From: Puniceicoccaceae bacterium 5H
GTDB lineage: Bacteria > Verrucomicrobiota > Verrucomicrobiia > Opitutales > Oceanipulchritudinaceae
Direction of reading: 5' to 3'
Length of the DNA stretch: 64,000 nt
NCBI GenBank assembly: GCA_009772895.1
Contig: WOUP01000018.1
Location: 1 to 64,000, forward strand
Below, in pieces: positions 39,490 through 55,537 of this stretch (the stretch's first letter is position 1; every line of letters begins with the position of its first letter). A program made the translations under genes and the position numbers. The notes under the pieces are model-generated. The model did not search any database. It saw only the letters and a program-made list of their open reading frames with translations, and had not been told where the DNA came from.

Positions 39490-41223
39490 ATGTCTTTGAA
39501 ACTGACGCGACAACAGTATGCCGAGATGTTCGGCCCCACCGTGGGCGACCGCGTGCGTCTGGCCGACACGGAGCTCTTCGTGGAGGTCGAGCGCGACTGG
39601 ATCGCCGAGAACGGCGGCTACGGCAACGAAGTGAAGTTTGGCGGCGGCAAGGTCATCCGCGACGGCATGGGCCAATCGCCTACGCACCTCGCGGCGGACT
39701 GCCTCGACCTCGTGCTGACCAACGCGCTGCTGCTCGACCCGGTCCACGGCGTCGTGAAGTGCGACATCGGGGTGAAGAACGGTCGCATTGCGGGCGTCGG
39801 CCATGCGGGCAACCCGTTGATCCAGGACGGCGTGACCGAGGGCATGATTGTCGGCGCTTCGACCGAGGTGATTGCGGCGGAAGGCAGCATCGTCACCGCC
39901 GGCGGCATCGACTCGCACATCCACTTTATCTGCCCGCAACAGATTGACGAGGCGCTCGCGAGCGGCGTCACGACCATGATGGGCGGCGGCACCGGCCCCG
40001 CCACAGGCACCAACGCCACCACCTGCACCCCCGGCGCCTGGAACATCCACCGCATGCTCCAGTCTGCCGACGCCTTCCCGATGAACCTCGGCTTCATGGG
40101 CAAGGGCAACAGCTCCAACGCGGACGCCCTGCGCGAGCAGGTAGCCGCCGGGGCGATGGGCCTCAAGCTGCATGAGGACTGGGGCACCACGCCGATGGCG
40201 ATCGACACCTGCCTCTCCGTGGCGGATGAGATGGACATCCAGGTGGCGATCCACACCGACACGCTCAACGAAAGCGGCTTTGTCGAGACGACTATCGCCG
40301 CCTTCAAGGGCCGGGTGATCCACACCTTTCACAGCGAGGGTGCGGGCGGCGGGCACGCGCCGGACATCCTCAAGGTCTGCGGCGAGGCCAACGTGCTGCC
40401 CTCGTCGACCAACCCGACCCGGCCCTTCACGGTCAATACGATCGACGAGCACCTCGACATGCTCATGGTTTGCCACCACCTCGATGCCAGCATCCCCGAG
40501 GACGTGGCCTTTGCCGAGAGCCGCATCCGCCCGCAGACCATCGCGGCCGAGGACATCCTGCACGACCGCGGCGCCATCTCCATCATGGCCAGCGATAGCC
40601 AGGCGATGGGCCGGGTGGGCGAGGTGTTGATCCGCACCTGGCAGACGGCAGACAAGATGAAGCGTCAGTTCGGCGAATTGAAGGCCGAGGCGCATCCGGC
40701 GGCGGACAACTTCCGCGTGCTGCGTTACCTCGCCAAATACACCATCAATCCGGCGATCGCCTGCGGTTTTGCGCAGGAGGTGGGCTCGGTCGAGGTAGGC
40801 AAGCTGGCGGACCTCGTGGTGTTCAAGCCCGCGTTCTTTGGCGTGAAACCGGAGCTGGTGCTGAAGGGCGGCATGATCGCGCTCGCCAACATGGGCGACC
40901 CCAACGCCTCGATCCCTACGCCGCAACCGACCTTTTACCGGCCCCAGTTCGGGGCCTACGCCGGGGCGCGCGAGGCCACCTGCGTCACATTCGTCAGCCA
41001 GGCCGCGCTCGCAGCCGGGGTGCCGGCCCAGCTGGGCTTGCGCAAGCGCTGTGTGGCGGTCCAGAGCTGCCGCCAGCTCTCGAAAAAGGACATGGTGCTC
41101 AACGACTACCTGCCGCAGATTTCCGTCGATCCCGAGACTTACGAGGTGAAGGCCGACGGCGAATTGCTGACTTGTGAGCCCGCGACCGAATTACCGATGG
41201 CGCAACGCTACTTCCTGTTTTAG
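39490..41223 (+). CDS. ureC: Urease alpha (catalytic) subunit
   Basis: A 577-residue alpha subunit that looks complete and active. All nickel-site elements are present: H-x-H in D-S-H-I-H-F (near 138), the lysine to be carbamylated in [10 protein letters not shown] in A-I-H-T-D-T-L-N, H in [15 protein letters not shown], the mobile flap V-C-H-H-L with its catalytic His, and Asp in M-A-S-D-S-Q-A-M-G. It splits urea to ammonia and carbamate in the cytoplasm. Next to a dedicated urea importer it makes a complete urea-nitrogen pathway. Confidence 0.98.
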
Positions 41224-44528: not shown

Positions 44529-45014
44529 CTAGGCTGGCCCCGGTTCCTCGGCGTCGGCGTCCTGCTGGCGTCGGGCGTGCACGGGCGGCAACAACTTGGA
44601 GGTCACCGTGAGGTTGACCGAGCTGACGCCGCGGGTGCCGACGAGTTGGTCGGTAATCGCCTGCAGCCGGTGCACGGGTCCTTGCACCACCCATACTTCC
44701 ATCACGTGTGCATTCTCGAGCAGTACGTGTTGGGATCCAATGACTTCGGCTACGTGATCGCGCTGGATCTTGACGAGCTTCTGCATCAGACCCCGGCGTG
44801 ATTCGTCGTACACGAGTGTCACCATGCCCGCCATGACCTCGGCCGGATCGTTCTGGTAATAGCTGAGCAGCCCCGTCTGGATCATGTCGGCGATGGCCTG
44901 CGAGCGGTTGTGGAAACCGCGGTTCTCCATCATCTCGTCCAGCGACTGCAAGAGGGCGTTGGGCAGCGATATACTGATGCGACTGACGTTCTGTGGGAGG
45001 GGTTCCTGGGACAT
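44529..45014 (-). CDS. NikR-family (RHH plus ACT-like) regulator lacking most canonical nickel ligands
   Basis: A 161-residue regulator from ATG 45014; ATG 45026 would add four residues. The N-terminal ribbon-helix-helix (S-R-I-S-I-S-L-P, M-M-E-N-R-G-F-H-N-R-S-Q-A-I) matches NikR, and the C-terminal domain aligns along its length with E. coli NikR without gaps. At the four high-affinity nickel positions, only His87 is kept: His76 is Arg, His89 is Leu and Cys95 is Val. It therefore probably does not sense nickel by the canonical square-planar site. It converges on the hupE gene with a 5-base gap and is divergent from the second ABC transporter, making it a good candidate for the regulator of the nitrogen units. 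Confidence 0.85.
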   Translation of the reverse strand: MSQEPLPQNVSRISISLPNALLQSLDEMMENRGFHNRSQAIADMIQTGLLSYYQNDPAEVMAGMVTLVYDESRRGLMQKLVKIQRDHVAEVIGSQHVLLENAHVMEVWVVQGPVHRLQAITDQLVGTRGVSSVNLTVTSKLLPPVHARRQQDADAEEPGPA

Positions 45015-45026
45015 CTCAGTGTCCAT

Positions 45027-45306
45027 CGTCGCTGAGCGGGGCGCAACTGGCAAGCCTGCGCGCGATTTCCCCCTACAGTAGAGGCGCCCCCACTGGTCAG
45101 TATTGAAATCCTTACTGTTCAATCTTGCCCATTTTGAATCGAAAAGGTATGGGTGGTATAGCACCTGCAAGTATTAAAAAACGAACAAAACGTAATACTT
45201 GAGCGGTGCGAGCTCGCCACTTCTGCGCGAAAATGAACAGAACGGCGGGCGAATGCTGCCACGGGACGTTTTGGGCAACTTAAGAACACCCATTCCTGCA
45301 ATTGCT
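45027..45306. promoter_or_regulatory. Divergent control region between the NikR-like gene and the ABC importer
   Basis: About 280 bases, AT-rich in the middle, no gene seen. It carries the perfect inverted repeat at 45168-45201, a weaker one (CAGTA...TACTG, 45098-45117) closer to the regulator gene, and a 10-bp palindrome GCGAGCTCGC (45208-45217). I find no guanidine riboswitch pattern in it. Confidence 0.55.
45168..45201. promoter_or_regulatory. Perfect 9-bp inverted repeat, CAAGTATTA / TAATACTTG (candidate nitrogen-unit operator)
   Basis: The arms (45168-45176, 45193-45201) are separated by 16 A-rich bases ending AAAACG. The same TATTA-16-TAATA layout recurs at 48687-48712, and the right half with flanks recurs at 31897-31925. 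Centre-to-centre spacing of two helical turns fits a dimeric or tetrameric regulator such as an RHH protein; the NikR-like gene next door is a candidate. An alternative is that TAATAC is a -10 box. Confidence 0.6.
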
Positions 45307-46305
45307 ATGAACAACCCAATCGCATCGTGGTTCCGTCGGGCCGGTCTCGCCGCCCTGACTCTGATGGTCGGCGCCGTCGCTTCCCTTTCTGCCAAAGAGC
45401 CTCTCAAGATCGCCTACAGTGACTGGCCCGGCTGGGTCGCCTGGGAGATCGGCATCAAGAAGGGCTGGTTCGAGGAAGAGGGCGTGGACGTCGATTTCCT
45501 CTGGTTCGACTACGTCGCCTCGATGGATGCCTACGTTGCGGGCAACGTGGACGCCGTCTGCATGACCAATGGCGACGCGCTCGTGACCGGAGCCACCGGC
45601 AAGCCCTCCGTCGGCATCATCCTGAACGATTTCTCCAACGGCAACGACATGGTCGTGGCTGCCCCGGGCATTGACTCGATCCAAGACCTCAAGGGCAAGA
45701 AGGTCGGCCTCGAAGAAGGCTTCGTGGAGCACCTGATGTTCCTCACCGCGCTGAAGAAGGCCGGCATGAACCCCTCGGACGTCACCATCGTGAACACGCC
45801 GACGAACGAGACGCCGCAGGTGCTCGCTTCCGGTGCCGTGGACGCGATTGCGGCCTGGCAGCCCAACTCCGGCCAGGCGCTCAAGACAGTGGCCGGCTCG
45901 CAGCCGATCTTCACCTCCGCTGACGCCCCGGGCATCATCTACGACTTGCTTTACGTCTCGCCCGAGAGCCTCGAATCGCGTCGCGACGACTGGATGAAGG
46001 TGACGAAGGTCTGGTACCGCATCGTCGACTACCTGCAGGACGAGAGCAATTTCGACGAAGCCCTCGCCATCCTCGCCAGCCGCGTGTCGGTCGACCCGGC
46101 GGAATACGAGCCGTTTTTCCAGGGCACCTACATCCTGAGCTACGACGAGGCGATGGAACGCTGGCAGGATGCCTCCGGTCTGGACTCCGTCTACGGTTCC
46201 AGCCGTGCGGTCGACGCCTTCAACCGTTCCGTCGGCGTTTACAGCGAGCGCCAGGACATCCAGAAGTATCTCGATCCGAGCCTGACCGAAGCGCTCGACC
46301 AGTAA
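45307..46305 (+). CDS. ABC transporter substrate-binding protein (NMT1/taurine-nitrate type), probable guanidine system
   Basis: A 332-residue periplasmic protein from ATG 45307 with a signal peptide ending S-L-S-A-K. It opens [18 protein letters not shown], then [12 protein letters not shown] and the mid-domain [11 protein letters not shown], the pattern of the SsuA/TauA/THI5 fold group that accompanies urea-carboxylase-type clusters. The cluster context favours guanidine, or a related small N compound, as ligand; the sequence alone does not show it. A 72-base GC-rich gap with weak hairpins separates it from the permease. Confidence 0.85.
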
Positions 46306-46377
46306 GCTTTCACCCCGTGGGGCGGGGCGCTTGATCGCCACCCCGTCCCGGCGGCCCATCCTTTTCCCTTCCCGATT

Positions 46378-47763
46378 TTGAAACGCGCCTCCCGCAGTTC
46401 CGACACCGTGTCGTGGTTTGCCATCCGCAAGCCCCTCCCGGGCGAGCGACGCCTGCTGCTCACCGTGCTTTCCTTTGTGCTGCCGCTCGCCCTCTGGTGC
46501 CTTGTCAGCTACGTGCCCTTTATCTGGCACCCGGATATCAAGCTGACGGTGGCGGCCGACCGCGAAGGCGTCACGACGGTCTACACCGCCGGTGACCACG
46601 TGGCGCGCTCCTACTTCGATGAATACGCCAATGCCGTGCGCCGGGAAAACGAGGCGGTGCAGGCGGGCGAGGGCACGACCCGCAGCGGTTTTTCGGCCCG
46701 GCGCAACAACGTGAAGATTCTCCGTGCGGTCGCGCCGCTGGCGATCGAGCAAGGCTGGATCTCTGAGAACCAGGTGACGGACAACGCGGCGATCTTCGAC
46801 GTCTGGGAAGGGCTCGCCACGGGCCGCCTCGTTTCGGAAAAACCGGAGCTGACGCCGGAGAATCTCGCGATTGTCCAGGAGGACTGGCAGACGCTGCAGG
46901 CCCATTGGGCGGAGGATCCCGAGCACGAGATGCCGAGCGATCCGCTGCTGAAGCTGATCCCGCAGGGGCGTCTGAGCAACCCCGTCTACCTGCCCGAGCC
47001 GCACGCGGTGCTGCTCACCGGGTGGAAGGACTGGAACGCCGAACCGGCCGAGGGGCGTCCCTCGTTGCCCGAGCGCTACCGGCACTCGCTCTATATCGTG
47101 TTCTCCGGCTTCTTCCTCGCGGCGCTTGCGGGGGTGCCGATCGGCATCCTCAGTGGCACCTACGACTTTTTCTCGAAGCTCTTCGAGCCGTTCATCGACT
47201 TTTTCCGCTACATGCCGGCGCCGGCCTTCAGCACGCTGCTGGTGGCGATCTTTCTCGCGCACGATGCGCCCAAGATCGCGCTGGTCTTCGTCGGCACCTT
47301 CTTTCAGCTCGTGCTCGTCGTGGCCAACACCACACGCCAGCTCGACTATTCGCTGCTGGAGGCCGCGCAGACGCTGGGGGCCAAGCGCCTCGACCTGCTG
47401 CGCCGCGTCATCCTGCCCGGCATTACGCCCTCCCTCTACAACGACTTGCGCATCCTGCTCGGCTGGGCCTGGACGTGGCTCGTCATCGCCGAACTGATCG
47501 GGGTGAAGAGCGGTCTGACGGAGGTGATCGAGACGCAGGGGCGCTGGCGCAACTTCGAGAGCGTCTTTCCTGTCATCATCCTGATTGGCCTGACCGGCTT
47601 CTTTACCGATCAGCTGCTGGCCAACCTGCGCCCACTGCTCTTCCCGTGGACGCCTGAGGCCATCGGCCAGAAACAGGGCCCGCTGGTGCGCTTCTACCGT
47701 TGGGTGACCGACCAGCAGGTGTATGTGCGCGACGACAAACCCACAACTTCCGACCCCGCATGA
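46378..47763 (+). CDS. ABC transporter permease with a long N-terminal periplasmic insert
   Basis: A 461-residue protein starting at TTG 46378. One membrane helix (residues about 20-45) is followed by about 185 hydrophilic residues lacking a recognised domain, then the standard BPD-type permease domain (240-430) with Y-M-P-A-P-A-F and the EAA loop [14 protein letters not shown]. Most SsuC/TauC permeases are about 260 residues, so the insert is unusual, although versions exist in urea-carboxylase-linked clusters. Its stop overlaps the ATPase start. Confidence 0.85.
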
Positions 47764-48662
47764 GCGACCACCTCGACCTTCCCGATTACCGCGAACAGAG
47801 CCCGGAAGTCGCCGCACGCTTCGCCTCCATCCGGCAGCGCCCGGTGAAGCTGGAGGTGTGCGGGCTGGAGAAGCGCTTCCATTCGCCCGAGGGCGAGCGC
47901 GTGGTGCTGCAAGACATCTCCTTCAAGGCCCACCGGCGCGAATTCATCTCCATCATCGGCCCTTCCGGCTGCGGCAAATCCACGTTGATCCGTATCCTGG
48001 CCGGCCTCGAAACCATCTCGGGAGGCGACGTGCTGCTGGAGGGCAACGCCGTCAAGGGGCCCAGTCGCGAGCGCGGCATGGTCTTCCAGGGCTATACGCT
48101 TTTCCCGTGGCTGACGGTGAAGAAGAACGTGATGTTCGGCCTCGAAGTCAGCGGGCGCTCCGGGCCGGCGGTCGAGAGCGAGGCGATGGACTGGATCAAT
48201 CTCGTCGGGCTCGCCCGCTATGCCAACGCCTATCCCAGCGAGCTTTCCGGCGGCATGAAGCAGCGCGTGGCCATTGCGCGTTCGCTGGCCAATCAGCCGC
48301 AGATCCTCTTCATGGACGAGCCCTTCGGCGCGCTCGATGCCCAGACGCGGGCGCAGATGCAGGCCTACCTGTTGCAAATCTGGAAAAACGTCGACGTCAC
48401 CATCCTCTTCGTCACGCACGACCTCGACGAAGCGATCTACCTTTCCGACCGCATCCTCGTGCTCAAGGCCAACCCGGGCGAAATCCAGGAGTTCATCGAA
48501 GTGCCGGTGCCGCGCCCGCGCGATCCGGAGCAGTTCATCAGCCCGACCTTCCTCGCGACCAAAAACCGCCTCGAACACCTCATCCACCCGCGTCAGCCCG
48601 GCCAGGAGCAGGCCCGCCTGCCCATCACCAAGATGACCGCGGCGGGAGACGAGGTGGAGTAG
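47760..48662 (+). CDS. ABC transporter ATP-binding protein (SsuB/TauB type)
   Basis: A 300-residue ATPase, ATGA overlap with the permease. Walker [11 protein letters not shown] near 75, Q-loop [10 protein letters not shown], signature [10 protein letters not shown], Walker [13 protein letters not shown] and switch V-T-H-D-L-D-E-A. It completes the importer with the two genes before it. Fifty bases of AT-rich sequence follow before the DUF1989 gene. Confidence 0.92.
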
Positions 48663-48683
48663 GCTTGCCTTTTTTGACTTAAA

Positions 48684-48712
48684 TAGTATTACAAAAATAT
48701 AAAAACGTAATA
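48684..48712. promoter_or_regulatory. TATTA-16-TAATA element abutting the DUF1989 gene start
   Basis: TAGTATTA (48684-48691) and TAATA (48708-48712) are spaced exactly as in the element at 45168-45201, with a similar A-rich spacer ending AAAACG. The right half touches the ATG at 48713, so regulator binding could block translation or transcription initiation of this unit; the gene has no Shine-Dalgarno. Confidence 0.55.
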
Positions 48713-49456
48713 ATGAATCAGCTTTCACCCATTTCCGAAACCGACCTGCTGCACCGGGAGACGATCCGCGGCGGCGGCATGTGGTCCAAGGTGATCGGGC
48801 GCGGCAAGACCATGCGCCTGACCGATCTCGAGGGCGGCGCCAACGTCGGCCTCCTGCTCTACAATGCCTTTGAGCGCCAGGAGCGTTACAACATGCCCGA
48901 CACGTTGAAGGGCCAGCACATCTTTTTCCTGACCGCGCCGTATTGCCTGCACTCCGACATGGGGCGCATCCTGTGCTCCGTCACCGGTGATTCGTCTGGC
49001 TGGCACGATACGGTCTGCGGTTGCAGCGATGCCAAGCTCGTGCGCCAGAAGTATGGCGAAAAGTCCTACCAGCAGGCGCACAACGACTTTCACCGCAACG
49101 GCCGGGAGTGCTTTCTGATCGAGCTGGCCAAGTGGGGCCTCGGCGAAAAGGACCTCGTGCCCAACCTGAACCTCTTCAGCAAGGTCGTCTCGGACGAAGA
49201 GGGCGTGCTGTCCTTCGACGCGAGCCACGCCAAAGCCGGGGCCGCGATCGACCTGCGCTGCGAGCTCGACACCCTCGTCGTCTTCAACACCTGCCAGCAC
49301 CCGCTCGACCCGAATCCGGAATACGCGCCCAAGCCGGTGCAGCTGGAGGTCTACCGCAGCGCGCCGGTGGCCGAAGACGACCCCTGTCGCCTGTCGCGCC
49401 CCGAGAACGGCCGCGCCTTCCAGAATACCGAGGTCTACAACCGCCTGCGCTTCTAG
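48713..49456 (+). CDS. DUF1989 protein, carboxyguanidine deiminase subunit (urea carboxylase-associated protein 2)
   Basis: A 247-residue protein. DUF1989 traits: [48 protein letters not shown], and H-N-D-F-H-R-N-G. Proteins of this pair, long called urea carboxylase-associated, were shown to form the heteromeric carboxyguanidine deiminase that converts carboxyguanidine to allophanate. Cys/His residues here are compatible with the zinc site of the family. It is followed by the second subunit after 37 bases. Confidence 0.9.
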
Positions 49457-49493
49457 CGCGCCCCCCCGCCGCCCACCTCAACTTACGCACACC

Positions 49494-50141
49494 ATGTTGA
49501 CCGAAAGTCCTTACCAGCCCGATCAGGCCGTCTACCGCCACGTCATCCCGGCGGGCGACCGCTGGATGCACACCATCCGTCAGGGCCAGATCTTCCGCAT
49601 CCACGACCTCGAGGGCAACCAGGCCGCCGATACGCTCTTTTACGACGCCCACCACCCGGACGACCGCTACAGCGCCAGCGACACGATTCAGCGCCAGGGC
49701 AAGCTCTACCTGACGACGGGCAGCGTGCTCTATTCGAGCCTCGGCCATCCGCTGCTGACCATCACCGCCGATACCTGCGGTCGGCACGACACGCTGGGCG
49801 GCGCCTGCTCCCGCGAGAGCAATACGATGCGCTACGCCCTCGACAAGGAGCACATGCACGCCTGCCGCGACAGCTTTATCCGCGGCGTCCAGGAGTGCTG
49901 CGAGCACCACCTCGATAAGCGCGACATCACCTGCAACATCAATTTCTTCATGAATGTGCCGGTGACGCCGGACGGTCGCCTGACCTTCGAAGACGGCATC
50001 TCCGCCCCCGGGCGCTACGTCGAGATGCGGGCCGAGCGCGACGTCTACGTGCTGATCTCCAACTGCCCGCAGCTCAACAACCCCTGCAACGCCTATCACC
50101 CGACCCCGGTCGAAGTCCTGATCTGGGACGAAGACCGCTAA
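49494..50141 (+). CDS. DUF1989 protein, carboxyguanidine deiminase subunit (urea carboxylase-associated protein 1)
   Basis: A 215-residue DUF1989 protein: [47 protein letters not shown] and [10 protein letters not shown]. It is the partner of the upstream subunit. The pair links a guanidine carboxylase to allophanate hydrolase, both present immediately downstream. Confidence 0.9.
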
Positions 50142-50192
50142 GCCGGAACATTTCCGCCTCGCCACCCCCGCACACCGCCCGAACGCACCGTC

Positions 50193-53100
50193 ATGTTTCA
50201 GAAAGTCCTCATCGCCAATCGCGGCGAAATCGCCTGCCGTATCATCCGCACCCTGCGCCAGCTCGGCGTCCAGTCCGTCGCCATCTACTCGGATGCGGAC
50301 GCCTACGCCGCCCACGTGGGGCTGGCGGACGAAGCCGTGCGCGTCGGTCCGGCCCCGGTGGCCGAGAGCTACCTGAATACCAACGCGATCCTGCAGGCGG
50401 TGCGCGAAACCGGTGCGCAGGCGGTGCATCCGGGCTACGGGCTATTGAGTGAAAACGCGGCCTTTGCCGAAGCTTGCGAGGCCGCCGGCGTGACTTTTAT
50501 CGGGCCGACGCCGGAGCAGATGCGCCAGTTTGGCCTCAAGCATACCGCGCGTGAAATCGCCCAACAGGCCGCGGTGCCGCTCGTGCCCGGCACCGGCGTG
50601 CTCGAGGGCGTGGACGACGCGCTCCGGCAGGCGGGCGAGATCGGCTATCCGGTCATGCTCAAGAGCAGTGCGGGCGGCGGGGGCATCGGGATGCGGCTCT
50701 GCCGCGACGCCCGCGAGCTGGAGCAGGCCTATGCGGCGGTCGAACGCCTGTCGCGCAACAACTTCAACGACGCCGCGCTCTTTCTCGAAAAATACCTGGA
50801 ACGCGCCCGCCACATCGAAGTCCAGCTCTTCGGCGACGGGCAGGGCAGGGTGGTCACGCTCGGCGAGCGCGATTGCTCCGTCCAGCGCCGTAACCAGAAG
50901 GTGATCGAGGAAACGCCCGCGCCGGGCATCACCGGCGAGCTGCGCGTGGCCCTCGCGGAGGCCGCCCGTCGGCTGGGCGAACGCATCGCCTACCGCTCGG
51001 CGGGCACGGTGGAGTTTATCTACGATGTCGGCTCCGGGCAGTTCTATTTCCTCGAAGTCAACACCCGCTTGCAGGTCGAGCACGGCGTAACGGAACTCGT
51101 CACCGGCGTGGACCTCGTGGCATGGATGGTCCGCCTCGCGGCGGGTGGATGGCAACCGCCCGCGCAGGAGGAGATCCGCAGCGTCGGCCACGCGATCCAG
51201 ACCCGCCTCTACGCCGAGGATCCGCTGAAGCATTTCCAGCCCAGCACCGGTGAATTGACCGAGGCCCGTTTTCCGGAGTGGACGCGGGTCGACCGCTGGA
51301 TCGAGCGCGGCACGGAAGTCAGCCCCTACTACGATCCGATGCTGGCCAAGGTGCTGGTGCAGGGCGATGACCGCAAGCAGGCCATCGGCCGGATGCAGCG
51401 CGCGCTGGCGGAGACCCGTGTGGCCGGGGTGGAGACCAACCTCGAGTTCACGCGCCAGATTTTCGACGAGTCTGCCTTCCAGCGGGGCCAGGTGCACACG
51501 CGCTTCCTCGAAGGCTTTGCCTACGTCAGCCGTACGGTAGATGTGCTGGCGCCGGGCACCTTGACGACAGTGCAGGACTATCCAGGCCGTGTCGGCTATT
51601 GGGACGTCGGCGTGCCGCCGTCCGGCCCGATGGACAGCCTGGCCTTCCGCCTGGGCAACCGCATCCTCGGCAACGACAAGGCCGCGGCGGGCCTCGAGAT
51701 CACCCTGACCGGCCCGACGCTGAAGTTCCAGGGGGCCACCACGATTTGCCTGACGGGCGCAGAGATCGAAGCAACGCTCGACGGCACCCCCGTGCCCCAC
51801 TGGCAGGCTGTGCCGGTGGCGGCGGGGGCCACTTTGACGCTCGGCAAGGTCACGGGCACCGGTTGCCGGGCCTATCTGGCGTTCGCGGGCGGCCTGGATG
51901 TGCCGGACTACCTCGGCAGCAAGGCGACCTTTACCCTCGGCAAGTTCGGGGGGCACAACGGCCGCACACTGCAGGCGGGCGACGTCCTGCACCTGAGCGA
52001 AGCCGTGGAGGCCGACGCCGCCCCGCTGCCCAGCGCCCTCCAGCCGCACTACGGCGACACCTGGCAGGTGCGCGTGCTCTACGGCCCGCATGGCGCGCCG
52101 GACTACTTTACGGACGAAGACATCGACATGTTCTTCGCGACCGATTGGGAGGTGCACTACAACTCCGCGCGCACCGGCGTGCGCCTCATCGGTCCGAAGC
52201 CCAAATGGGCACGCGCCGACGGCGGCGAGGCGGGGCTGCATCCCTCGAACATCCACGACAATGCCTACGCCGTCGGCGCGGTCGACTTTACCGGCGACAT
52301 GCCGATCATCCTCGGCCCCGACGGCCCCAGCCTGGGCGGCTTCGTCTGCCCGGCGACGATCGTGGCCGCCGACCTCTGGAAAATGGGCCAGTTCCGCCCG
52401 GGCGACAAGGTGCGCTTTGTGCGCGTCGATCATCAGGAGGCCGACCGCCTGCTGGAGGAACAGGAGCGCATGCTGGTGACCCTGCAGGCCCCGACCGCCC
52501 CCGCCGCCGCGCCGAGTCAAGGCGATCCGGCGCTCATCACCCAGCTCGAGCCCAACGCCGACCGCCGCCTCGCGGTGACCTACCGCCGCTCGGGCGACCA
52601 CGCGGTGCTGATCGAATACGGCGAGATGGTGCTCGACCTCAACCTGCGCTTCCGCGTACACGCCTTGATGCAGGCCCTGCAGGAGCGTCCGCTGCCCGGC
52701 TTGCTCGAGCTGACGCCGGGTATCCGCTCCCTCCAGGTGCGCTACGACCCCCTGCAACTCAAGCTTTCCGCGCTGATGGATCACCTGCTGGCGCTCGAGG
52801 CGGAACTGCCGTCGGTCACCGAGATGACGCTGTCCACCCGCATCGTGCACCTGCCGCTGTCCTGGGACGACGAGCAGACGCAGCTCGCGATTCGCAAATA
52901 CGACCAGATCGTGCGCAAGAACGCGCCTTGGGCTCCTAGCAACATCGAGTTCATCCGCCGTATCAACGGGCTGGATTCGGTCGAGGACGTGAAGGACATC
53001 GTGTTCAACGCCAGCTACCTCGTGATGGGGCTGGGCGACGTCTACCTCGGCGCGCCGGTGGCCACGCCCATCGACCCGCGCCACCGCCTCGTCACGACCA

Positions 53101-53801
53101 AATACAACCCCGCCCGCACGTGGACGCCGGAGAACGCGGTCGGCATCGGCGGCGCCTACCTCTGCGTCTACGGCATGGAGGGCCCCGGCGGCTACCAGTT
53201 TGTGGGCCGCACGGTGCAGGTGTGGAACCGCCAGCGCACCACCCCTTATTTCGAGCCTGGCAAGCCCTGGCTGCTGCGCTTTTTCGACCAGATCCGTTTC
53301 TATCCGGTCAGCCACGACGAGCTGATGCAGATGCGCGCGGACTTCCCGCACGGGCGCTTTTCGCCCAAGATCGAGGAAACGACCTTCGATCTGGGCGACT
53401 ATCAGCGCTTCCTGCGCGACAACGCCGACAGCATCCACGCCTTCAAGCAGCACCAGCAGGCCTCCTTTGAGGCCGAACGGGATCGTTGGGTACAAAACGG
53501 TCAGGCGACCTTCGAGGCCGAAGACGGCTTTGCGGACGGCATCCTCGACGAAGCCGAGGAGCTGCCCGAGGGGTGTGAGCTGCTCACCGCCCAGGTGACG
53601 GGCAATGTCTGGAAGATCACCGCCGAGCCCGGCCAACGCATCTCCGCTGGCGACCCGCTGGTGGTGCTCGAATCCATGAAGATGGAGGTCGGCTGCCCCG
53701 CGCCGCAGGACTGCGAGGTGGTCGAAGTCCGTTGCCACGAAGGCACCGCCGTGCAGACCGGCCAGGCCCTCTGCGTCATCCGTCCGCTCGCCACCGCCTG
53801 A
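50193..53801 (+). CDS. Biotin-dependent urea/guanidine carboxylase
   Basis: A 1202-residue multidomain enzyme. Residues 1-445: biotin carboxylase ([25 protein letters not shown]-grasp [19 protein letters not shown]). About 455-765: KipA-like (AHS2) half, [14 protein letters not shown]. About 795-1085: KipI-like half, [10 protein letters not shown] then G-Q-type [12 protein letters not shown]-terminal biotin carrier with E-S-M-K-M-E (Lys 1163). Enzymes adjacent to DUF1989 pairs are mostly guanidine carboxylases; true urea carboxylases usually lack that pair and urease. I therefore favour guanidine, giving carboxyguanidine. Confidence 0.9.
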
Positions 53802-53812
53802 AAACGCCCGCC

Positions 53813-55537
53813 ATGCCTCAATCGCTCGACCTCACCAGCCTCCGCGCCGCCTATTGTCAGGGCCGCCTCACGCCGCGCCAGCTTCTCGCCCAACTCGATG
53901 CCCGCTGGGCGGAAGTGGACGACCCGGCGATCTACATCCATCGGCTGACGCAGGAGGAGCTGGAGCCCTACCTGCAACGGCTAGACCAATCCACCCCCGC
54001 AGACCTGCCGCTCTACGGCATCCCTTTCGTAATCAAGGACAATATCGACCTCGCGGGCGTGCCCACTACCGCCGCCTGCGAGGCCTACCGCTACGTGCCG
54101 GAGGAGTCGGCCCATGTGGTGCAGCGGCTGATCGCGCTCGGCGCGATCCCGATGGGCAAGGGCAACCTCGACCAGTTTGCGACCGGCCTCGTCGGCGTGC
54201 GCTCGCCCTACGGCGTGCCGCGCAATGCCCTGTCGCCCGAGCACATCCCAGGCGGTTCCAGCTCGGGTTCGGCGGTGGCCGTGGCTCAAGGGCTGGCGAG
54301 CTTTTCCCTGGGCACCGACACGGCGGGTTCGGGGCGCGTGCCGGCGGCCTTCAATCACCTCTTCGGCGTTAAACCGACGCGCGGCATCGTCAGCGCGCGC
54401 GGCGTGGTGCCGGCGTGTCGCTCGCTGGACTGCGTTTCGATCTTTGCCCTCAACGCCACCGACGCGCAAACGCTGCTGCAGGCCTGCACGGACTACGATC
54501 CGGCAGACGCCTATGCGCGCCCGGACGCGACGCCCGCCTACCCGGAGCACGCCACGCCCGTGGTTGGGGTCGTGGCGCCGGAGCAGTGCGCCTTTTTCGG
54601 CAATGCGGAATACGAGCGCCTGTATCGCGAGCTGCTTGCGCGGCTGGAGGCGCAGGGCGTACGCACGCAGGTGGTCGACTTCACCGTCTTCACCGAGGCC
54701 GCACGCCTGCTCTACGAGGGCCCGTGGGTCAGCGAACGCTATTGCGCGATCGAGGAGCTGATCGAGCGGGACCCGGAGGCGCTCCACCCGGTCACGCGCC
54801 GGATTATCGCCGGCGGCAAAGACCTGAAGGCCCCCGACCTCTTCAAGGCCATGTATCGCCTGGAGGAATTGAAGCGCGCCGCCGAGGCCGTCTGGCGGTC
54901 GGTGGACGTCTTGCTGACCCCCACCGCCGGCACGATCTACACGCAGGCAGAAGTCGAGGCCGACCCGGTCCAGACCAACCGCAACCTGGGCTACTACACC
55001 AATTTCATGAACCTGCTGGATTGCTGCGCTCTGGCGGCTCCGGCCGGTTTTACGGCTCAGGGACTTGCGTTTGGCGTGACGCTGGTCGGCCCGGCTTTCA
55101 GCGACCGGCGTCTGCTGGATCTTGCAGGGCAGCTGCCGCTCGAGCCCGAGAGCACCCAGCCCATCGTGGTCTGCGGCGCGCACCTGCAAGGCCTGCCGCT
55201 CAACCATCAGCTGACGGATCTCGGCGCGACGCGGCGCGAAACGACCTATACCGCGCCCGTCTATCGTGCGTATGCTTTACCGGGAGCCGTACCCAAGCCG
55301 GGTCTGGTGCGCGTATCCGCAGGTGGGGCCGCACAGCAGGTGGAAGTCTGGGATCTGCCGACGCGCCACTGGGGCACCTTCGCCGCTCAGATCGCATCCC
55401 CGCTCGGCCTGGGCTGGGTCGAACTGGCCGACGGCCGCCGTGTGCTCGGTTTCCTCTGCGAAGCCGTTGCCACCGCCGACGCCGAAGACATTACCGTCCA
55501 CGGAGGATGGCGTAACTACCTGCAGTCCAAAGGCTAG
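53813..55537 (+). CDS. atzF: Allophanate hydrolase
   Basis: A 574-residue amidase-signature enzyme from ATG 53813. Catalytic triad: Lys 75 in F-V-I-K-D-N-I-D, cis-Ser in G-G-S-S-S-G-S (near 150) and nucleophile Ser 173 in T-D-T-A-G-S-G-R-V-P-A. The C-terminal 130 residues are the extra AtzF-type domain that finishes conversion of N-carboxycarbamate. It turns allophanate into ammonia and CO2, the last step after the carboxylase and deiminase. It begins 11 bases after the carboxylase stop. Confidence 0.94.
   Translation: MPQSLDLTSLRAAYCQGRLTPRQLLAQLDARWAEVDDPAIYIHRLTQEELEPYLQRLDQSTPADLPLYGIPFVIKDNIDLAGVPTTAACEAYRYVPEESAHVVQRLIALGAIPMGKGNLDQFATGLVGVRSPYGVPRNALSPEHIPGGSSSGSAVAVAQGLASFSLGTDTAGSGRVPAAFNHLFGVKPTRGIVSARGVVPACRSLDCVSIFALNATDAQTLLQACTDYDPADAYARPDATPAYPEHATPVVGVVAPEQCAFFGNAEYERLYRELLARLEAQGVRTQVVDFTVFTEAARLLYEGPWVSERYCAIEELIERDPEALHPVTRRIIAGGKDLKAPDLFKAMYRLEELKRAAEAVWRSVDVLLTPTAGTIYTQAEVEADPVQTNRNLGYYTNFMNLLDCCALAAPAGFTAQGLAFGVTLVGPAFSDRRLLDLAGQLPLEPESTQPIVVCGAHLQGLPLNHQLTDLGATRRETTYTAPVYRAYALPGAVPKPGLVRVSAGGAAQQVEVWDLPTRHWGTFAAQIASPLGLGWVELADGRRVLGFLCEAVATADAEDITVHGGWRNYLQSKG

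Follow-up and report, generated by a model that had tools for sequence, protein, structure and literature searches.

What controls guanidine use in a bacterium that carries the genes for it and shows no guanidine riboswitch before them? The question arises at positions 45307-55537 of the window analysed here, a 64,000-nucleotide stretch of contig WOUP01000018.1 from Puniceicoccaceae bacterium 5H (positions 1 to 64,000, forward strand), where genes for an importer, a DUF1989 pair, a carboxylase and an allophanate hydrolase form an operon. Genes for predicted guanidine-acting urea carboxylases are mostly riboswitch-controlled, and those for urea-specific enzymes are not (PMC12186494; this and the other articles cited are drawn on in excerpt). 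A preliminary description of the window had recognised the operon; absent from it were a NikR-family gene divergent from the importer and two NikR-type operators. We consider it likely that this former nickel sensor now regulates the guanidine operon, and that it is probably released by guanidine or a close derivative. The pathway itself is known biochemistry, and the operon alone is a further member of a known pathway; the new part is the regulator, which is conserved and cleanly separated from true NikR.

A riboswitch before the operon was rejected as the control element, as Rfam returned no guanidine match in the window, the guanidine-I class was absent from the genome, and no riboswitch was found at 14 further operon loci. 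Guanidine-II was absent from the genome as well. In the wider survey, guanidine-I was found in none of the 132 genomes of the order and, under stricter filters, in none of the 384 genomes of the class. Guanidine-II occurred in three of the 132 order genomes, none of which had a NikR-like gene or a carboxylase match. Guanidine classes III and IV were covered to the extent that Rfam 15 includes them, in the window and at the 14 loci.

The NikR-family protein, the only protein of the genome with a NikR_C domain, combines by sequence the ribbon-helix-helix and NikR_C domains of NikR and matches NikR in the PDB (E 4e-21). NCBI models give it the name nickel-responsive regulator NikR (NF003381, 106.5 bits against a cut-off of 105). 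The nickel ligands of E. coli NikR are His76, His87, His89 and Cys95 (PMC7055735); at the aligned positions the window protein has Arg, His, Leu and Val, and three of the four ligands are gone. Equivalents of H87 and E97 are present. Two further positions separate guanidine-linked proteins of the family from the others. Glu at E. coli position 91 (E100 of the window protein) occurs in 52 of 55 guanidine-linked proteins, versus Asp in 40 of 41 others, and Gln at position 102 (Q111) occurs in 54 of 54, versus Arg or Lys in 40 of 41. A C-terminal IPPxH tail is a further difference from NikR. As read from the alignment, a carboxylate would have been gained and a positive residue lost close to the former nickel site, changes that would be favourable to an organic cation. 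We found no description of a NikR-family regulator of guanidine operons in the open-licence PMC literature, a search that did not extend to subscription papers. In the excerpt of PMC2667541, urea carboxylase appears beside NikR only as the yeast enzyme; PMC12153308 was rejected as a paper on NikR and urea carboxylase, the co-mention having come from an author's name.

Known NikR operators have the form GTATGA-N16-TCATAC in E. coli (PMC7055735) and GTGTTAC-N13/14-GTAACAC, reversed half-sites included, in delta-proteobacteria (PMC545781). Candidate sites were scored over seven-base arms with NikR-type variants allowed (maximum 14, threshold at least 12), a threshold that just two sites reached in all 64 kb of the window. 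Both are putative NikR-type inverted repeats of 28 bp, in keeping with the 27-28 bp of NikR operators, and lie near the genes that they would regulate. Operator 1 sits between the divergent regulator and binding-protein genes, where it is the longest conserved island of a spacer that has otherwise diverged from that of a genome of the same genus, G055. Operator 2 overlaps the start of the first DUF1989 gene and is partly kept in G055. No site of at least 12/14 was present at the urease genes of the window. Weak sites before the urt genes (31891 and 32047, 11/14) were set aside as operators because G055 shows only equally low-scoring sites, at other spots.

To read the distribution of the regulator, the substrate type of the carboxylase has to be established. 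Guanidine carboxylases are told apart from urea carboxylases by Asp at the position of residue 1330 of the K. lactis enzyme, with Asp at 1584 also required (PMC11410670), and the same Asp/Asn rule is given in PMC12186494. K. lactis structures 3va7 and 5i8i match the window carboxylase over residues 2-1196. In the 5i8i alignment D698 of the window enzyme aligns with N1330 of K. lactis urea amidolyase, and D949, in the motif GLGD, lies opposite the shared D1584 (position 1584 found by manual counting along the 5i8i sequence). Urea carboxylases have Asn where the window enzyme has Asp698. The preliminary description had favoured guanidine over urea and proposed comparing active-site residues with those of urea carboxylases; on that comparison the residues do not match the urea type, and Asp698 and Asp949 fit the published guanidine signature. 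The signature supports guanidine as the predicted substrate. The argument that the urease next door makes a second urea route redundant is plausible, and the guanidine reading does not need it. The context is likewise that of a guanidine carboxylase, with the DUF1989 pair and the allophanate hydrolase both present.

Within the order, carboxylases occur in 19 of the 132 genomes, and 20 of their 21 genes could be typed, 16 with Asp and four with Asn. Window-type operons have an SsuA/NitT-like importer and a DUF1989 pair. The carboxylase and allophanate hydrolase of the four Asn-type clusters (urt-uca-atzF) are homologous to those of the window; unlike the window, these clusters lie behind urt-type urea transporter genes with a UrtA-type importer and have no DUF1989 pair, NikR or operator. 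NikR-like genes were found in 18 of the 132 genomes. In 16 of the 18 the gene either adjoins the importer in divergent orientation or is part of the operon itself. Both remaining genes are broken: in G032 a stop falls early in the DNA-binding domain and a remnant of allophanate hydrolase adjoins, and in G102 the N-terminal part is lost and no operon genes were seen. All 15 NikR-linked carboxylases of the order are of the Asp type. G022 and G071 hold both carboxylase types, and there NikR accompanies only the Asp type.

The same partition was found across the class, where the 384 genomes gave 87 NikR-family places, of which the 76 not already seen were fetched and read. Half of these proteins (38) have the full His/His/His/Cys site, and none of the 38 is near guanidine-operon genes; the other 38 lack Cys95, and all of their regions hold a DUF1989 pair, a carboxylase or both (38/38 vs 0/38, Fisher 3e-22). 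The carboxylase could be typed at 34 of the 38 Cys-less loci and was Asp at every one. Carboxylases occur in 56 genomes of the class, 46 of them with a Cys-less NikR; those of the 10 genomes without a Cys-less NikR, together with the additional copies of G022 and G071, comprise four Asn, five Asp and three Cys. Operators scoring at least 12/14 precede nikR, the binding-protein gene or the first DUF1989 gene at 37 of the 38 loci, compared with 1.2% of Markov controls and one of 122 windows before other operon genes. The sole locus without an operator, in G306, has a broken nikR. Outside the class, 288 genomes of the phylum gave 72 NikR-family places, and among the 32 examined all nine Cys-less NikRs belong to guanidine operons of the Asp type, and the 23 with the full ligand set have no guanidine-operon genes nearby. 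One genome, G557, has one protein of each kind.

A maximum-likelihood tree of 94 NikR proteins, built without the outside-class members and the broken proteins of G032, G102 and G306, placed the 53 guanidine-linked proteins on one side of a single branch (100/99), with one label change. Early-branching guanidine-linked members still have all three histidines, and their Cys is replaced by Tyr (HHHY) or Ser (HHHS). Because of these early branches, we infer that the Cys was probably lost first, and once, and the histidines later.

These data suggest a mechanism in which the importer would bring in guanidine, the carboxylase would add a carboxyl group to it with ATP and biotin, the DUF1989 pair would deiminate carboxyguanidine to allophanate, and allophanate hydrolase would convert allophanate to ammonia and CO2, activities assigned by analogy with characterised relatives. 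The regulator would be a NikR descendant in which the fold of two domains and the operator format, an inverted repeat of 28 bp, have outlasted the nickel site. Repression is probably exerted at both operators, upstream of the importer and upstream of the enzyme genes, and would be relieved when guanidine or a close derivative occupies the former nickel position. Repression rather than activation would be the simplest mechanism. Guanidine itself is, in our estimate, the ligand with somewhat better than even chances. We lean, by a small measure, towards the fullest form of the proposal, namely that a NikR descendant became a guanidine-sensing transcription factor, having lost its nickel site once, kept its operator and taken the role of the riboswitch across the class and in some genomes outside it.

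Several observations weigh against this proposal. Because the Cys-less NikRs form one clade, the linkage counts are not independent events. Some metal binding is possible because the early branches keep three histidines. In G049 and G057 the linkage between NikR and operon spans contig ends, and the comparison outside the class covers its NikR-family places only in part. Five Asp-type carboxylases (G041, G280, G305, G392 and G420) have neither a NikR-like gene nor an operator, and the regulator is therefore not universal. Promoter scans gave no sigma-70 consensus at operator 1 or 2 that would fix a repressor geometry. Finally, the genome holds one more near-match to the short operator pattern, with one mismatch, at C2:224032 (L004, G000). 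That site is flanked by genes for an AraC-type regulator and a TonB-receptor-like protein, as named from their translations.

A different signal is the alternative that survives best. The regulator might control the operon and yet sense carboxyguanidine, allophanate, methylguanidine, another guanidino compound or a nitrogen-status metabolite. Our assignment of the ligand is an indirect one, and creatininase-family and glutamine-synthetase-like genes in related operons suggest a wider traffic of guanidino compounds. NikR is, however, linked only to carboxylases of the Asp, that is guanidine, type, and where guanidine operons are known elsewhere, guanidine itself is the signal that switches them. 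Another signal is possible, and we hold it to be rather unlikely.

We also considered that the regulator is still a sensor of nickel or another metal and gates the nickel-free carboxylase route by the nickel supply to the neighbouring urease. Its NikR ancestry, the adjoining urease and HupE/UreJ genes, the retention of counterparts of H87 and E97 by the window protein and the three histidines of some subclades would all be in keeping with this, and NikR has been predicted to place nickel-free isozymes under repression by nickel (PMC545781). On the other hand, Cys95 is absent from every linked and present in every unlinked protein of the class survey, one of four ligands is left in the window protein, and no urease or HupE match was seen in the region of 33 of the 38 linked class loci. 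Such a nickel gate, our first idea, was demoted because the ligands are lost and the partition between Cys95 and linkage is complete; we regard it as improbable.

Two readings are very improbable. NCBIfam names (urea carboxylase, urea amidolyase associated proteins) and the urea-type operons of relatives would allow a true urea carboxylase in a second urea route, against which stand the Asp at K. lactis 1330 and a DUF1989 pair of the kind that the order's four Asn-type clusters lack. The position of the gene between HupE/UreJ and the importer might also be incidental, with the protein regulating only itself or the urease/HupE genes, but operator 2, at the first gene of the DUF1989 pair, is remote from nikR, nikR is inside the operon in nine related operons (one of them at a contig end), and no site of at least 12 occurs at the urease genes.

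Table 1. Regulator, putative operators and operon genes in the window.
Feature	Position	Strand	Basis
NikR-family regulator, ribbon-helix-helix + NikR_C, nickel site lost; putative operon regulator	44529..45014	-	PF08753 74 bits
Putative operator 1, GTATTA-N16-TAATAC	45171..45198	.	Perfect inverted repeat, 0 mismatches; score 13/14
Periplasmic substrate-binding protein of importer, NMT1-type	45307..46305	+	PF09084, PF13379
ATP-binding cassette (ABC) permease	46378..47763	+	PF00528
ABC ATPase	47760..48662	+	PF00005
Putative operator 2, GTATTA-N16-TAATAA	48686..48713	.	1 mismatch; score 13/14
DUF1989 protein UAAP1, one predicted carboxyguanidine deiminase subunit	48713..49456	+	TIGR03425 342 bits, cut-off 206; PF09347
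DUF1989 protein UAAP2, other predicted carboxyguanidine deiminase subunit	49494..50141	+	TIGR03424 332 bits, cut-off 285; PF09347
Biotin-dependent carboxylase, predicted guanidine type	50193..53801	+	TIGR02712 1897 bits, cut-off 1304
Codon of D698 (= K. lactis 1330; Asp guanidine vs Asn urea)	52284..52286	+	5i8i alignment, PMC11410670 rule
Allophanate hydrolase with C-terminal domain	53807..55537	+	TIGR02713 725 bits, cut-off 511; PF01425, PF21986

The seven operon genes are intact, all on the plus strand and in the order that the preliminary description had given for importer, DUF1989 pair, carboxylase and allophanate hydrolase, with identities confirmed by NCBIfam and Pfam. Its expectation that the carboxylase would be labelled urea carboxylase also came true, this being the name that NCBI's model TIGR02712 gives. 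The closest NCBIfam models for the binding protein are TIGR03427 and the SsuA family, neither reaching its cut-off, and residues 1 to about 200 of the permease (46378-47000) have no Pfam match. UAAP1 and UAAP2 are the sole DUF1989 pair, with no such genes elsewhere in the genome. The urease region that the same description had placed nearby is present upstream of the guanidine operon, with UreD and HupE/UreJ recognised by Pfam and UreC, UreG and UrtA from reading the translations, with no profile. An Rfam match to 5_ureB_sRNA (55 bits, 39654-39952, minus strand) lies antisense to the start of ureC.

Related loci differ from the window in several ways. In some operons, creatininase-family (PF02633) and glutamine-synthetase-like (PF00120) genes stand between the ATPase and DUF1989 genes (L030:13522-15741, L037:3946-6106, L041:9373-11465, L042:7462-9672, L044:10133-12445 and L068:3943-6150; Pfam was run on the L030 pair only), and the window operon has neither gene. 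The Asp-type operons of G041, G280, G305, G392 and G420 (L068, L221, L222, L223 and L226) showed no Rfam riboswitch either. A third carboxylase type has Cys at K. lactis 1330 (L224, L225 and L227, in G320, G389 and G422) and may act on a substrate other than guanidine and urea. At these loci the importer and DUF1989 genes come in a different order, with no guanidine-type NikR nearby, and L225 has Rieske oxygenase, polysaccharide-deacetylase-like and FGE-like genes between importer and carboxylase.

The window has the same four enzyme genes and ABC importer, and the same signature Asp residues, as the guanidine carboxylase pathway (Gca, CgdA/CgdB, AtzF) of Pseudomonas syringae, Raoultella, Klebsiella and Vreelandella boliviensis. 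The guanidine operon of V. boliviensis has two riboswitches, one at its start and one internal (PMC12508155), control elements at two places that are paralleled by the importer and enzyme-gene operators of the window. By contrast, the window has two putative DNA operators and a NikR-family gene and no guanidine riboswitch that we found, and lacks mgdH/mgdL between carboxylase and hydrolase, which abut. Operons with guanidine-I or -II riboswitches perform the same task, governing guanidine genes from the start of the operon and from within it, by an RNA switch rather than by the protein regulator proposed here. With NikR of E. coli, P. horikoshii and H. pylori (PF08753) the regulator shares the two-domain fold, as judged from sequence, and the operator format; it differs in the lost ligands, the Glu/Gln pair at E. 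coli 91/102, the IPPxH tail and the guanidine-operon target.

If correct, this proposal would add a guanidine sensor made of protein, and an example of a metalloregulator that has come to respond to a small molecule. Control by a protein would account for the regulation of guanidine use where riboswitches were not found, and would supply a ready biosensor part. It would also show the conversion of a square-planar nickel site into an organic-cation site on the same fold. Among database proteins labelled nickel-responsive regulator NikR, some probably do not sense nickel, and nickel regulons reconstructed from their labels would be wrong.

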